From assembly GCA_024639025.1 (NCBI GenBank), contig JAHEJF010000110.1:1-6371 (forward strand): a stretch of 6,371 bases of DNA. Direction: 5' to 3'. Position numbers and translations under genes: made by a program. Every line of letters begins with the position of its first letter. Position 1 is the stretch's first letter. Positions 1,367-5,458 of this stretch are shown here, piece by piece. Source of the DNA: Ahrensia sp. Lineage in GTDB: Bacteria > Pseudomonadota > Alphaproteobacteria > Rhizobiales > Rhizobiaceae. Under the pieces are notes generated by a model. That model did no database searches. It was not told where the DNA came from and was given only the letters and a program-made list of their open reading frames with translations.

Positions 1367-3166
1367 TCAAACCAGCTCCTTGCCCTTCTTGTCGATAGCC
1401 TTGGAAATGGCTTCGTCGCTGGCCTCGTCCGGCAACAGCATCTCATTATGCGCCTTGCCCGAAGGAATCATCGGGAAGCAATTGGCAAGATTGGCCACAC
1501 GGCAATCAAAAATCACCGGTGCATCAACATTGATCATCTGGTCAATCGCATCGTCCAGATCATCGGGCCTGTCGCAATACAGGCCAACGCCGCCATAGGC
1601 CTCTGCCAACTTCACAAAATCGGGCAATGCTTCCGAGTAGGAATTTGAAAGACGGTTGCCATGCAGTAATTGCTGCCACTGGCGCACCATGCCCATATAC
1701 TGATTGTTCAAAATAAAGATTTTCATGGGTAGTCCATATTGGACCGCTGTCGACATTTCCTGCATCATCATTTGAATGGACGCGTCACCGGCAATATCGA
1801 TCACCAACGAATCTGGATGCGCAACCTGCACACCCATGGCAGCTGGCAAACCATAGCCCATCGTGCCCAATCCACCCGAAGTCATCCAACGATTTGGCTT
1901 TTCAAATCCAAAATACTGGGCAGCCCACATCTGGTGCTGTCCAACTTCGGTTGTAATGTAGGTATCCTTTCCCGATCGCATCACGCCTGCATACAAGCGC
2001 TCAATCGCAAATTGCGGCATGATTGAGGTCTTCGATGGCGTGTAAGCCAAGGAATTGCGCGCTTTCCAGGTGCGAATTGAATCGCGCCAGGAACCCAGCT
2101 TTTTGTTCTGGTCGCCGGTCTTGGTATCGCGCCACAATTTCAGCATGTGCTCGAGCACGTTGACCACATCGCCAATCACGCCGATATCGACATGAACGAT
2201 CTTGTTGATGGACGTCGGATCAATATCGATATGGATCTTCTTGGAGTTGGGAGAAAATGCGTCGATCCTGCCGGTAATGCGGTCATCGAAACGCGCACCG
2301 ATATTGATCATGACATCGCAATCATGCATCGCCATATTGGCTTCATAAGTGCCATGCATGCCCAGCATGCCGAGCCAGTGTTCACCGGATGCCGGATAGG
2401 CGCCCAGGCCCATCAGGGTCGATGTGATTGGAAACCCGGTTTCTTCGACCAGCTCTCGCAACAGCTCACTGGCCTTGTCGCCAGAATTGATGACGCCGCC
2501 ACCTGAATAGATGATCGGCTTTTTTGCTTTGGCCATCAAGTCGACGGCAGCCTTGATGGCTTCAAGATTGCCCTCGACTTTTGGCTTGTAGCTCAATCGA
2601 TGGCCGGCCGTTTCTGCCGATTTGTACATCCCGAGCTGAAATTGAATATCCTTCGGAATATCAACAACAACCGGGCCCGGACGGCCTGTTGTTGCAATCC
2701 GAAACGCCTCATGCAGCACGCGCGGCAAGTCTTCAATCGATTTCACCAACCAATTGTGTTTGGTGCACGGCCGGGTGATGCCGACAGTATCGCACTCCTG
2801 AAAAGCATCGGAACCAATCAATGTGGTTGGCACCTGCCCCGAGATACAAACCAGGGGAATCGAGTCCATCAGCGCATCCTGCAACGCAGTAACCGTATTG
2901 GTCGCACCTGGACCGGAAGTCACTAAAACCACGCCGGGCTTACCAGTTGAACGGGCATAACCCTCGGCAGCATGACCGGCGCCCTGCTCGTGCCGTACCA
3001 GAATATGCTTGATATCATCCTGCTGAAACAATTCATCATAGATCGGAAGCACAGCTCCGCCCGGATACCCAAATACGTGGCGAACGCCATTGTCCCGCAA
3101 TGCTTGCAAGACCATGCCTGCGCCCGTCATCTCTGCTCCATCAAATTTGGATTTTTTTGCGCTCAT
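1367..3166 (-). CDS. ilvI: Acetolactate synthase, large (catalytic) subunit
   Basis: Thiamine-diphosphate and FAD enzyme that condenses two pyruvates to 2-acetolactate, or pyruvate with 2-ketobutyrate to 2-aceto-2-hydroxybutyrate. This is the first common step of valine, leucine and isoleucine synthesis in the cytoplasm. The 599 residues match the usual full length. The N-terminal Pyr domain has VFGYPGGAVLP (31-41) and RHEQGAGHAAEGYAR with the catalytic Glu at 60. The central FAD-binding domain spans about 195-345. The C-terminal PP domain carries the ThDP/Mg motif from GDAS (460-463) to the NN at 487-488. Trp 497 in VRQWQQL corresponds to the conserved Trp of the herbicide site, and PSGKAHNEML lies near the C-terminus. 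The ATG at 3166 has a modest GGAACGAG upstream. Family members are named ilvI, ilvB or ilvG; ilvI is the common name in this group. It normally works with a regulatory small subunit (ilvH/ilvN), which is not the next gene. Expression is probably controlled by the attenuator upstream. Confidence 0.97.
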   Translation of the reverse strand: MSAKKSKFDGAEMTGAGMVLQALRDNGVRHVFGYPGGAVLPIYDELFQQDDIKHILVRHEQGAGHAAEGYARSTGKPGVVLVTSGPGATNTVTALQDALMDSIPLVCISGQVPTTLIGSDAFQECDTVGITRPCTKHNWLVKSIEDLPRVLHEAFRIATTGRPGPVVVDIPKDIQFQLGMYKSAETAGHRLSYKPKVEGNLEAIKAAVDLMAKAKKPIIYSGGGVINSGDKASELLRELVEETGFPITSTLMGLGAYPASGEHWLGMLGMHGTYEANMAMHDCDVMINIGARFDDRITGRIDAFSPNSKKIHIDIDPTSINKIVHVDIGVIGDVVNVLEHMLKLWRDTKTGDQNKKLGSWRDSIRTWKARNSLAYTPSKTSIMPQFAIERLYAGVMRSGKDTYITTEVGQHQMWAAQYFGFEKPNRWMTSGGLGTMGYGLPAAMGVQVAHPDSLVIDIAGDASIQMMMQEMSTAVQYGLPMKIFILNNQYMGMVRQWQQLLHGNRLSNSYSEALPDFVKLAEAYGGVGLYCDRPDDLDDAIDQMINVDAPVIFDCRVANLANCFPMIPSGKAHNEMLLPDEASDEAISKAIDKKGKELV

Positions 3167-3229
3167 CGTGCTCGTTCCGTCTGTTTTGTCTTAGAGTGTC
3201 TTTTGATCATTCCAGTTACCAAAGGCAAT

Positions 3230-3253
3230 AAAAAAGGCCCCTTTCAGGAGCCT
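3230..3253 (-). terminator. Intrinsic terminator of the ilv attenuator
   Basis: On the minus strand AGGCTCC (3253-3247), loop TGAAA, and GGGGCCT (3241-3235) give a 7-bp GC-rich stem with one G-T wobble. It is followed at once by a run of six T (3235-3230). It lies 35 nt after the leader peptide stop and 63 nt before the ilvI start. That position makes it the attenuator terminator rather than the end of another gene. Confidence 0.85.
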
Positions 3254-3262
3254 ATGTTTACC

Positions 3263-3309
3263 GCGCATGGGAGCTAATGCCAGATGGTTACACCATCTTG
3301 CCCATGCGC
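3263..3309 (-). promoter_or_regulatory. Attenuator leader RNA: nested hairpins
   Basis: On the minus strand GCGCATGGG (3309-3301) and CCCATGCGC (3271-3263) form a perfect 9-bp inverted repeat. Nested within it is AGATGGT / ACCATCT (3298-3292 with 3288-3282), a 7-bp hairpin with a 3-nt loop. The proximal arm lies inside the leader peptide codons just after Val-Val, so a stalled ribosome would mask it while a free-running one would not. This suits the ribosome-sensitive hairpin that governs whether the downstream terminator forms. The segment between the two stems, GGCATTAGCTCC (3281-3270), shares CTCC and part of the wider context with the terminator's 5' arm. Confidence 0.7.
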
Positions 3310-3341
3310 CTTCCCACCACAAGAATAGAATTCATGTTCAT
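3288..3341 (-). CDS. ilv leader peptide (attenuator sensor)
   Basis: A 17-codon open frame reading MNMNSILVVGRRMGKMV, then TAA. It holds four consecutive codons for the pathway's end products: Ile (ATT), Leu (CTT), Val (GTG), Val (GTG). This is the hallmark of a branched-chain amino acid leader peptide. When charged Ile-, Leu- or Val-tRNA is scarce, a ribosome would stall at 3326-3315 and cover the proximal hairpin arm that starts at 3309, changing the fold downstream. The first ATG (3341) sits where transcription should begin, so the message may be leaderless. The second ATG (3335) is a possible alternative; no Shine-Dalgarno is seen before either. The stop codon lies within an inner hairpin. 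It is too short for standard gene finders. The call rests on the regulatory codons, the terminator behind it and ilvI as the next gene. Confidence 0.85.
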   Translation of the reverse strand: MNMNSILVVGRRMGKMV

Positions 3342-3347
3342 GGCGCG

Positions 3348-3375
3348 ACAGTAACATGCAGTACGCATCAGTCAA
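3348..3375 (-). promoter_or_regulatory. Probable sigma-70 type promoter of the ilv leader
   Basis: On the minus strand there is a -35 TTGACT (3370-3375), which matches the consensus TTGACA at five of six positions. After 16 nt comes a weak -10, TACTGT (3348-3353). Six bases separate the -10 from the A of the leader ATG at 3341, so the expected transcription start falls on or next to that A. The placement just ahead of the leader peptide supports it; the weak -10 lowers confidence. Confidence 0.55.
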
Positions 3376-3478: not shown

Positions 3479-5458
3479 ATGTATCGCGACGACAATATGA
3501 AGAGCAACGCACAAAGCGACCCAGAAGAAAGCATCAACGACGCCAATGCACCAATCGTTCGCAACCGGTCGGAAGGTCATGTGATCGAGTGTGACGGCAT
3601 GCATGCGATTGTGTCTGCCGTCATGAAAAAGGACGATAATGCCAGCCAGGACTATTGGTCGGTCGGTATGCTGATGTCGATTGCTATGGGTGATGTGCGT
3701 ACCATTGGCATGCTGTACAAGGTGGAAGCCGATACGAGCAATTGGGTTAAGGATGGCGAGAATCGCGTAAAAATTCACATGGAGTTGGTCGGCGAAATCC
3801 AGACCAACGAGAACGGCAAACCCTCGTTCAATGGCGGCATTTCGATCTATCCACATTTGGGCGCAATCGCGCATCGCATTCGCAGGGCAGATCTCGCCGC
3901 CGTGTTTGAGAATTCAGATGCGACCGCTGTGAACATTGGAACGCTGTCGCAGAACAAGGAAATCCCCGCCCTTCTTTCCGTCGATAGCATGATTTCACGC
4001 CACTTTGCCGTCGTCGGAACAACCGGAGTTGGTAAATCTTCAACTGTGACGCTCCTGATGCGCAAGGTGCTGGAGATGCGTCCTGATGTGCGCATCCTGA
4101 TCCTTGACCCCCATAACGAATTTTCTTCCGCATTTCCGGACAAGGCCGTCGTCATCACGGATGCCAATCTCGATCTACCATTCTGGGCGTTCCGGTTGGA
4201 AGAATTGGTTGAAGTCCTGTTTCGCGGTCGATCGCACATCGCTGAAGAAGTTGATATTCTACGCGACATGATCCCACGCGCCAAAGCGCTCTTCAAAGGC
4301 GATGAACGGACGTCAATTCGAAAATCCTCGGCCGATGAGGTGGGTCTGACAGCAGATACGCCTGTTCCCTATCGCATGTCCGATCTTGTGCGCTTGATTG
4401 ATGATGCAATGGGCAAATTGGGCATTGCCGAGCAGCGATCCCATCTCAAAGCGTTGCTTGCGCGTATTCAAGCGGTAACCAACGATCCGAACTATCGTTT
4501 CATGTTTGCCAACACCACGATCGAAGACAATCTGGACACCGTCCTGAGCACCATATTCCGTGTTCCAGCCAATGGGCGGCCAATCACGGCTTTCCAGCTC
4601 AGCGGCATTCCTTCTGAAGTTGTCAACGCCGTGGTGTCTGTCTTGTGTCGGATGGCATTTGATCTTGCCGTCTGGTCCGATTCAAAAGTCAAAACACTTG
4701 TTTTGTGTGAGGAAGCGCACCGCTACATTCCTGCCAACAAGGAAGCTGGATTTGCACCGACCCGCCAGGCGATTGCGCGAATTGCCAAGGAAGGTCGGAA
4801 ATACGGTGTGAGCCTGGGGATTGTGACCCAGCGCCCCGGTGAGCTTGACGAAACCATCCTGTCTCAGTGCAACACATTTGTTTCTATGCGGCTTGGCAAT
4901 GACATTGACCAGGAAATCATGCGCAAAGCGATTTCAGGAGCGTCGCGATCCTACATCAACTTCCTGCCGTCACTGGCAAACCGGGAAGCCATCATGTTCG
5001 GACAGGGTGTTTCAACGCCCATGCGCATGACCTTCCAGACTATTCCGCAGCATGAACTGCCGGCTAACCACTTGATGGATGAAGCAGCCAACAAAGATGT
5101 GGTTGACGACAGCAAGATTGATCTCGCAACGATATTGCACGAGATCCGTTATCCGAAGCTCGACGACAAGAATTTCGACATTGAATCCCTTGCGCCCCTA
5201 CCCGGCGACGTCGCAATGGAGCAGAAGGAAACCATCACCGATATTCGCGATGGTGACGTGCAGGCAAGAAACGAGGAGTTGTTTGCCCAGAACGCGCCGC
5301 TACGCCGACAAACAGATCAAGGCTCGTCCACCACTTTGGTTCGCGAGGGACGACGCCAAAACGACGCTGTCCGGAAGGTCACAGCCCCGCCTCCTTTGGA
5401 TGGCGGCGGCGGTTCAGGCGGCAACAACCTGATTAATCGTTTCAGGAAAAACTCCTAA
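3479..5458 (+). CDS. HerA/DUF87-type P-loop ATPase (putative DNA translocase)
   Basis: A 659-residue member of the HerA/FtsK superfamily of hexameric, ATP-driven DNA pumps, presumably cytoplasmic. Residues about 30-160 fit the beta-rich N-terminal HAS-barrel. The ATPase core follows: Walker A GTTGVGKS (180-187, Lys 186), Walker B ILILDPHNEF (206-215, Asp 210), LVLCEEAHRYIP (407-418) and GIVTQRPGELD with Gln 451-Arg-Pro. Then comes FVSMRLGND with Arg 471, a candidate arginine finger. Residues after about 555 are charged and low-complexity, ending in a proline/glycine-rich tail (PPPLDGGGGSGG). ATG 3479 gives the longest frame; ATG 3497 (residue 7) is an alternative. Neither has a clear Shine-Dalgarno. 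Archaeal HerA works with the nuclease NurA in DNA end processing, and some bacterial homologues pair with defence effectors. No such partner is adjacent, so this looks like a solitary chromosomal copy whose role I cannot state. It diverges from the ilv unit and is probably transcribed alone. Confidence 0.92.
   Translation: MYRDDNMKSNAQSDPEESINDANAPIVRNRSEGHVIECDGMHAIVSAVMKKDDNASQDYWSVGMLMSIAMGDVRTIGMLYKVEADTSNWVKDGENRVKIHMELVGEIQTNENGKPSFNGGISIYPHLGAIAHRIRRADLAAVFENSDATAVNIGTLSQNKEIPALLSVDSMISRHFAVVGTTGVGKSSTVTLLMRKVLEMRPDVRILILDPHNEFSSAFPDKAVVITDANLDLPFWAFRLEELVEVLFRGRSHIAEEVDILRDMIPRAKALFKGDERTSIRKSSADEVGLTADTPVPYRMSDLVRLIDDAMGKLGIAEQRSHLKALLARIQAVTNDPNYRFMFANTTIEDNLDTVLSTIFRVPANGRPITAFQLSGIPSEVVNAVVSVLCRMAFDLAVWSDSKVKTLVLCEEAHRYIPANKEAGFAPTRQAIARIAKEGRKYGVSLGIVTQRPGELDETILSQCNTFVSMRLGNDIDQEIMRKAISGASRSYINFLPSLANREAIMFGQGVSTPMRMTFQTIPQHELPANHLMDEAANKDVVDDSKIDLATILHEIRYPKLDDKNFDIESLAPLPGDVAMEQKETITDIRDGDVQARNEELFAQNAPLRRQTDQGSSTTLVREGRRQNDAVRKVTAPPPLDGGGGSGGNNLINRFRKNS

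Follow-up and report, generated by a model that had tools for sequence, protein, structure and literature searches.

Putative leader peptides and terminators upstream of branched-chain genes in various Gram-negative species are mentioned in a review that cites the 2004 survey of Vitreschak and colleagues (PMC6123439, section on these genes), and because that survey may already have predicted the attenuator considered here, no priority is claimed for the attenuator itself. In Caulobacter crescentus, also an alphaproteobacterium, the short ORF ilvL with Ile and Val codons lies before the acetolactate synthase genes ilvIH/ilvBN and is described as acting by transcription attenuation in the lines on ilvL of PMC4117421. 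The S. meliloti trpL leader is a leaderless short ORF with consecutive control codons, and its terminated RNA persists as the small RNA rnTrpL (PMC7298713, part on the leader). In an Agrobacterium sRNA survey, 32 sRNAs were noted to resemble parts of long 5' UTRs (PMC3738593, part on UTRs). None of the titles seen in literature searches dealt with a rhizobial ilvI attenuator; a search for Atu_C8 together with sRNA found no paper, and the word start 'ilv' was absent from the text of PMC10117765, PMC3616915, PMC3738593 and PMC3927594.

The window, i.e. the whole stretch of DNA that was analysed (6,371 nucleotides from Ahrensia sp.), carries on its minus strand at 3375-3230, directly upstream of ilvI, all of the attenuator parts that an earlier note had named from the letters. 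They are given below together with the gene and the Rfam match.

3370..3375, minus strand: -35 box TTGACT, read from the sequence.
3348..3353, minus strand: weak -10 box TACTGT, matching TATAAT at 3 of 6 positions, 16 nt after the -35 box.
3288..3341, minus strand: leader ORF MNMNSILVVGRRMGKMV, 17 codons and a stop, with its ATG at 3341; from translation and from related ORFs in relatives.
3301..3309, minus strand: hairpin arm B, GCGCATGGG, within the ORF and 5 nt past the last Val codon; from the fold and covariation with arm D.
3283..3297, minus strand: apical hairpin, the loop region with the stop codon TAA; from the fold, with 4 of 5 pairs changed on both sides in alignment A1 (described below).
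3263..3271, minus strand: hairpin arm D, CCCATGCGC; from the fold and covariation.
3235..3253, minus strand: intrinsic terminator hairpin, arms E and F, followed by T6; from a terminator scan, and conserved.
3220..3342, minus strand: whole match to Rfam RF02502 (Atu_C8), 100.2 bits against a gathering score of 50, E 1.1e-21.
1367..3166, minus strand: ilvI, acetolactate synthase 3 large subunit, 599 aa; NCBIfam NF006581, 1147.2 bits, cut-off 974.

No promoter was listed by a strict sigma-70 scan; from the TACTGT box, transcription would be expected to begin at the ATG or right beside it. The control codons of the leader ORF in the window are ATT CTT GTG GTG (Ile-Leu-Val-Val). Arms B and D form a 9-bp hairpin, in which the apical hairpin (3297-3283) with the leader stop codon is nested, and which does not overlap the terminator. 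One terminator site was found in the window by the scan, against an average of 0.4 in shuffles, and the fold of 3345-3225 was -47 kcal/mol as compared with -34.3 +/- 3.8 kcal/mol in 200 shuffles (z -3.37). The gene predicted to be regulated by the leader would be ilvI. Directly 3' of it lies an ORF on the same strand (756-1370, 204 aa, TTG start, lipoprotein-like N terminus) for which neither Pfam nor NCBIfam gave a family at E 0.001; the gene that follows ilvI is thus not ilvH. The divergent neighbour (3479-5458, plus strand) encodes a HerA-like DUF87 ATPase, which matched Pfam PF01935 and fell under the cut-offs of the NCBIfam HerA models.

It had been claimed that the element would be missed by ORF calling. 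That is correct in so far as the list of ORFs, at the usual lengths, does not include it; the element itself is already in Rfam, where RF02502 is filed as 'Rhizobiales sRNA Atu_C8' with the type sRNA gene. The match in the window covers the full model (122/122 positions), and the consensus contains the leader ORF in frame, (M)KNTMIILVVGPRMGRAV-stop, beginning at the last base of the presumed ATG. The match starts 1 base before the leader ATG in the window and 2 bases after the first base of that ATG in loci L047, L038 and L045.

RF02502 was found in 240/247 genomes of the family sample (234 above cut-off), 161/297 of the order sample (49 above cut-off) and 6/385 of the class sample (2 above cut-off), and no match was obtained in 14 control genomes. 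The 136/297 order-sample genomes without a match were counted under stricter filters and regardless of whether ilvI was present. For gene context, 116 matches were examined, among them 29 from the order sample, 80 more from it picked across families, and L001-L007 from other searches; 108 of the 116, counting the one in the window, stand 124-344 nt before ilvI on its strand. Conversely, all 20 named ilvI loci tested (chosen from 80, Agrobacterium and Rhizobium species included) exceeded the RF02502 gathering score. Because of these two results, the family is best read as a cis-acting ilvI leader, which is the firmest point of the analysis. Rfam enters the family as an sRNA gene, whereas here it is taken as an ilvI leader that would give rise to that RNA upon termination, and a probable function is thereby given to a catalogued RNA family labelled only as an sRNA in Rfam.

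Within 420 nt upstream of ilvI, 77 of the 80 named loci have an ORF in which four or more Ile/Leu/Val codons follow one another. Two of the exceptions (L042, L057) have a run of three and pass a looser pattern, and the third (L116) has its RF02502 match further upstream. Among the seven family genomes without a match, five have no intact ilvI (no match in two, a fragment in one, pieces with stops in one, and only a distant relative with 28% identity in one), and two have an intact ilvI with a leader too changed for RF02502 and the terminator-like sequence kept. In each of five further small genomes added as a check, an RF02502 match and an intact ilvI were present. As a side observation, L244 and L245, from small genomes of one genus, have an intact ilvI without an RF02502 match upstream and with a terminator-like sequence kept, L244 also retaining a Leu-Ile-Val run, and in G544 only ilvI pieces with stops were found; these three are possible stages of a loss.

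The leader set for the following comparisons held 190 sequences, of which 187 were parsed (not L081, L084 and L181), L001, L003 and L005-L007 having been excluded beforehand. Clustering at 90% gave 109 leaders, and removal by hand of L004, L078, L159 and L186, in which leader or terminator was misread or different, left 105 diverse leaders. Their control runs contain Val in 105/105, Ile in 101/105 and Leu in 100/105. The run favours codons that ilvI avoids: in the 105 leaders it uses GTA at 60%, CTT at 58% and ATT at 58%, as against 1.8%, 5.1% and 14.7%, respectively, in ilvI of the 80 loci. A run of end-product codons, an intrinsic terminator before the gene and a downstream gene that makes the same amino acids are among the general marks of an attenuator, and all three are found here. 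Attenuation of ilvI by branched-chain amino acids as such is well supported by comparison and very probable.

In the closer set (the window, the fetched loci up to L018 and the 80 ilvI loci; 90 parsed leaders), a TTGAC precedes the leader start by 34-38 nt in 88/90. In the diverse leaders it does so in 47/105, where shuffling gives 1.2; this spacing test superseded an earlier promoter pattern that had been found in 74/105 with its spacing in two groups. Since a -35 box at that distance from the ATG is nearly constant in the closer set, the leader ORF is probably leaderless in the window and in that set, like S. meliloti trpL. A Shine-Dalgarno-like motif is present upstream of the leader start in 35/105 diverse leaders, so that a leaderless start is likely in the closer leaders and less certain in the others; the comparison at ilvI (0/25) was set aside because the ilvI start positions are unreliable. 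The peptide end G-x-R-M-G is conserved among close relatives.

Covariation was examined in alignment A1, 30 sequences chosen by hand from the 105 and mostly closer relatives. Helix B:D is paired in 100% of cells across the 30 sequences, with 5/8 pairs changed on both sides. The covariation of the whole structure was 0.327 as compared with 0.171 in shuffled alignments, a value reached by 0/500, and the structure was 96.5% paired as against 32-57% when it was slid along the alignment; one of five measures, further pair types, was unexceptional (60/500). The same two domains were recovered by RNAalifold. Over the 105 leaders, pairs within a leader were stronger than species-swapped ones, both for B:D (-15.5 vs -10.1 kcal/mol, mean percentile 0.10) and for E:F (-12.7 vs -10.5 kcal/mol, mean percentile 0.24). 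The B:D hairpin begins 0-5 nt past the control run, ends 0-9 nt before the terminator and spans 44-62 nt. The comparison of relatives that the earlier note had proposed was thus run, with codon runs found conserved and stems found to covary. The element is real and widespread, and it is probably functional.

The same note had spoken of a 'complete' attenuator with 'switch hairpins', a description that is not supported. The leader, the branched-chain codons and the terminator before ilvI stand; a conserved alternative partner for the terminator arms was not found. In the switch test, the RNA was truncated in the terminator loop, the ribosome was masked as a footprint, and the capture of the terminator 5' arm was compared between a ribosome stalled on the control codons and one at the stop codon, the capture at stall being the highest value over the control codons. 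The test was passed by 4/4 E. coli leaders, with stall and stop captures of 0.73 and 0.29 for ilvL, 0.61 and 0.01 for leuL, 0.73 and 0.04 for hisL, and 0.78 and 0.10 for thrL. As a rhizobial control, 30 trpE loci were used, of which 15 have a leader with Trp codons and 11 of these 15 a parsed terminator; 10/11 passed. The window leader gave a capture of 0.41 at stall and 0.46 at stop, i.e. no stall-dependent switch. The test was passed by 10/78 leaders of the close set used here (the window and 77 named loci) and by only 12/105 diverse ilvI leaders, whose medians were 0.46 at stall and 0.40 at stop; when the capture was averaged over the control codons, the value at stall was 0.21, below that at stop. 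With footprint and truncation varied, 7-10 of the 11 trp leaders and 3-27 of the 105 ilvI leaders passed, and a minority of ilvI leaders may therefore contain something antiterminator-like.

Own and species-swapped pairing was also compared for the windows upstream of the terminator, and none paired better with E or F in the 105 leaders (mean percentiles 0.44-0.61). In the trp control, the segment directly past the stop codon has a pairing energy with E of -15.6 kcal/mol and a percentile of 0.33, which makes the swap test no more than moderately sensitive in that case; more telling is the difference in energy, -15.6 kcal/mol against about -5 kcal/mol for the ilvI windows that pair best. Two particular partners were tried and rejected. 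Pairing of the control-codon segment with arm E was weaker in own than in swapped combinations (-4.0 vs -4.7 kcal/mol, 109 leaders), and pairing of the control-codon region with arm D was weak at best, with mean percentiles of 0.43-0.48 in three windows, the one window at 0.18 overlapping arm B itself. A classical antiterminator was rejected for most leaders by constrained folding, duplex search and swapped pairing, tests that cover neither pseudoknots nor proteins. Since an antiterminator was searched for and not found in most leaders, the leader is not filed as a classical four-segment attenuator.

The best of the rival explanations is that the leader is nevertheless of this classical type, with a competing antiterminator that captures arm E through weak, lineage-variable or pseudoknotted pairing and so escapes the tests. 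The remaining parts (codon runs, rare codons, position before ilvI) fit the classical plan, single leaders do give such folds (12/105 with the standard footprint and up to 27/105 with a longer one), the C. crescentus ilvL is described as a terminator blocked through stalling (PMC4117421, same lines), and an antiterminator is given as the general Gram-negative mechanism in the review (PMC6123439, same section). Against it, the very calculation that detects the switch in 4/4 E. coli and 10/11 rhizobial trp leaders detects it in few ilvI leaders, no upstream window beats swapped pairing with E or F although B:D and E:F stand out at 0.10 and 0.24, and the obvious candidate, the control-codon segment with E, pairs more weakly than when swapped. 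This explanation is regarded as a substantial minority possibility.

The reading preferred here is that an ilvI leader with recurring Ile-Leu-Val-Val codons, a hairpin and a terminator would act by ribosome-mediated attenuation in which the stalled ribosome is predicted to prevent termination; for the four steps taken together, the chances are held to be about even. In the first step, transcription probably begins at the ATG or beside it, and the ORF would be read as a leaderless message, as the promoter spacing suggests. In the second, when amino acids are plentiful, the ribosome would translate as far as the apical loop, where the stop codon lies, and would tend to open B:D, the terminator E:F would form, and the RNA of about 120 nt that is catalogued as Atu_C8 would be released. 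In the third, when Ile, Leu or Val is scarce, stalling would occur at the rare control codons, and with a stall on the first of them the front edge of the ribosome would stand at the base of B:D, which is predicted to remain folded. In the fourth, a ribosome on the first control codon, brought near the terminator by B:D, would block the terminator itself or stay coupled to RNA polymerase, so that ilvI would be transcribed. This fourth step would take the place of the usual antiterminator and is the least certain part of the scheme; a terminator blocked by the stalled ribosome, or a polymerase kept going by it, is put forward as a tentative proposal that is held to be less likely than not.

The proposal is one of geometry. 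With the ribosome edge assumed to lie 13 nt past the start of the A-site codon, the median number of unpaired nucleotides from a ribosome stalled on the first control codon to the terminator was 8 with B:D folded and 58 with it unfolded, and 21 from the stop codon; by folding out about 50 nt, B:D would shorten the gap between stalled ribosome and terminator from 58 to about 8 nt. With a stall on the first control codon, half or more of the B:D pairs persist in 105/105 leaders, with one on the second in 103/105 and with one on the last in 20/105. When the ribosome stalls on the last codon, most of B:D is lost in 85/105 leaders and in the window, so that the distance of 11 nt computed for that codon, for which the rest of the hairpin was assumed to be folded, is unsupported, and the proximity idea fits stalls on the first control codons and not on the last. 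A ribosome at the stop codon opens the hairpin in 64/105 and leaves at least half of its pairs in 41/105, so the contrast between stall and stop is not clean. B:D also folds without any ribosome in 103/105 leaders. When only folding is considered, the terminator of the window forms wherever the ribosome stands (0.98), and the medians of the family do not differ between ribosome states (0.87); the E. coli controls show the same. A hairpin a few nucleotides from the ribosome edge may still be able to fold. A trailing ribosome is reported to lower intrinsic termination at pyrL from 21.5 to 9.9% (PMC10135430, part on termination), and a ribosome and a polymerase can remain coupled across looped-out mRNA, according to the part of PMC11711091 on coupling.

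Two RF02502 matches were present in 9/247 family genomes, one of the second matches being weak. Eight copies (L002, L019, L020, L122, L123, L240, L241 and L242) precede genes of one transporter family, and the two proteins of it that were scanned both passed the cut-off of TIGR00710, Bcr/CflA efflux MFS transporter. These copies are Val-rich, and their eight genomes represent three families, one of them outside the order of the window. Six plasmid loci with related transporter genes were also inspected: two from Rhizobium (L248, L249) have an RF02502 match, likewise Val-rich, before the gene, an Agrobacterium plasmid locus (L247) has a TPP riboswitch (724-840) where the Rhizobium plasmids have the ilv-type leader, and the remaining three have neither. 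With two nutrient sensors in the same place, this transporter may serve to take up a metabolite and not to expel drugs. Where it precedes transporter genes, the leader is seen as a module that is also employed for genes other than ilvI. Further second copies stand before a second ilvI gene (L121, L231, and L232, where the ilvI match is in two pieces). In two genomes of one family, paired RF02502 leaders about 2.7 kb apart (L136/L137 and L138/L139) each stand before ilvI, probably by tandem duplication of leader and gene. Weak matches without an ilvI or transporter gene nearby (L005-L007, L243) were set aside as chance.

The position of these copies also bears on a second rival, that Atu_C8 is an independent trans-acting sRNA whose place before ilvI is incidental, or that the terminated leader acts in trans as well, like rnTrpL. 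The Rfam type is that of an sRNA gene, the S. meliloti trp leader yields a trans-acting RNA and peptide (PMC7298713, same part), and the conserved G-x-R-M-G end of the peptide in close relatives would suit such a role. Yet 108/116 matches precede ilvI, and the eight copies found elsewhere also stand as leaders, in front of a transporter gene; a trans-acting RNA does not need rare branched-chain codons in a row; and in distant families the RNA sequence diverges, yet codon run, hairpin and terminator persist. This rival is considered improbable. A third rival, that the element is no more than a terminator or insulator separating divergent genes and that its ORF has no meaning, accounts for the terminator found and is very hard to reconcile with a codon run, codon choice, position and stop-codon hairpin that recur across many families of the order.

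A wider form of the preferred reading makes the leader an attenuator without an antiterminator: the stop-codon hairpin would bring the stalled ribosome to the terminator, where the ribosome itself would take the antiterminator's part. Such a switch would control ilvI generally in the Hyphomicrobiales, would have been concealed in Rfam by the sRNA label, and would have been put to use again in front of transporter genes; in that breadth the reading is speculative. If the proximity mechanism were true, a stalled ribosome would control termination through RNA geometry, and the leader would be a compact natural system for testing ribosome-polymerase coupling.

Among known systems, C. crescentus ilvL is likened to the present leader by its description and not by RNA structure; RF02502 matched none of the 14 control genomes, and Caulobacter vibrioides is among the control genomes named. 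The S. meliloti trpL type shares the short ORF with consecutive control codons and probably the leaderless start; its terminated RNA persists as an sRNA. It differs in that the trp leaders of the order show a competing antiterminator (10/11) whereas the ilvI leaders mostly do not (12/105). With E. coli ilvL, leuL, thrL and hisL, the ilvI leader has in common the control codons, the terminator and the biosynthetic gene downstream, but all four of these capture the terminator arm upon a stall and most ilvI leaders do not. The step proposed for ilvI most resembles E. coli pyrL (pyrBI), where a coupled ribosome stops the terminator hairpin from folding (PMC10135430, same part); pyrL senses UTP via polymerase pausing, whereas the ilvI leader would sense a stall on amino acid codons, with a hairpin shortening the distance to the terminator.
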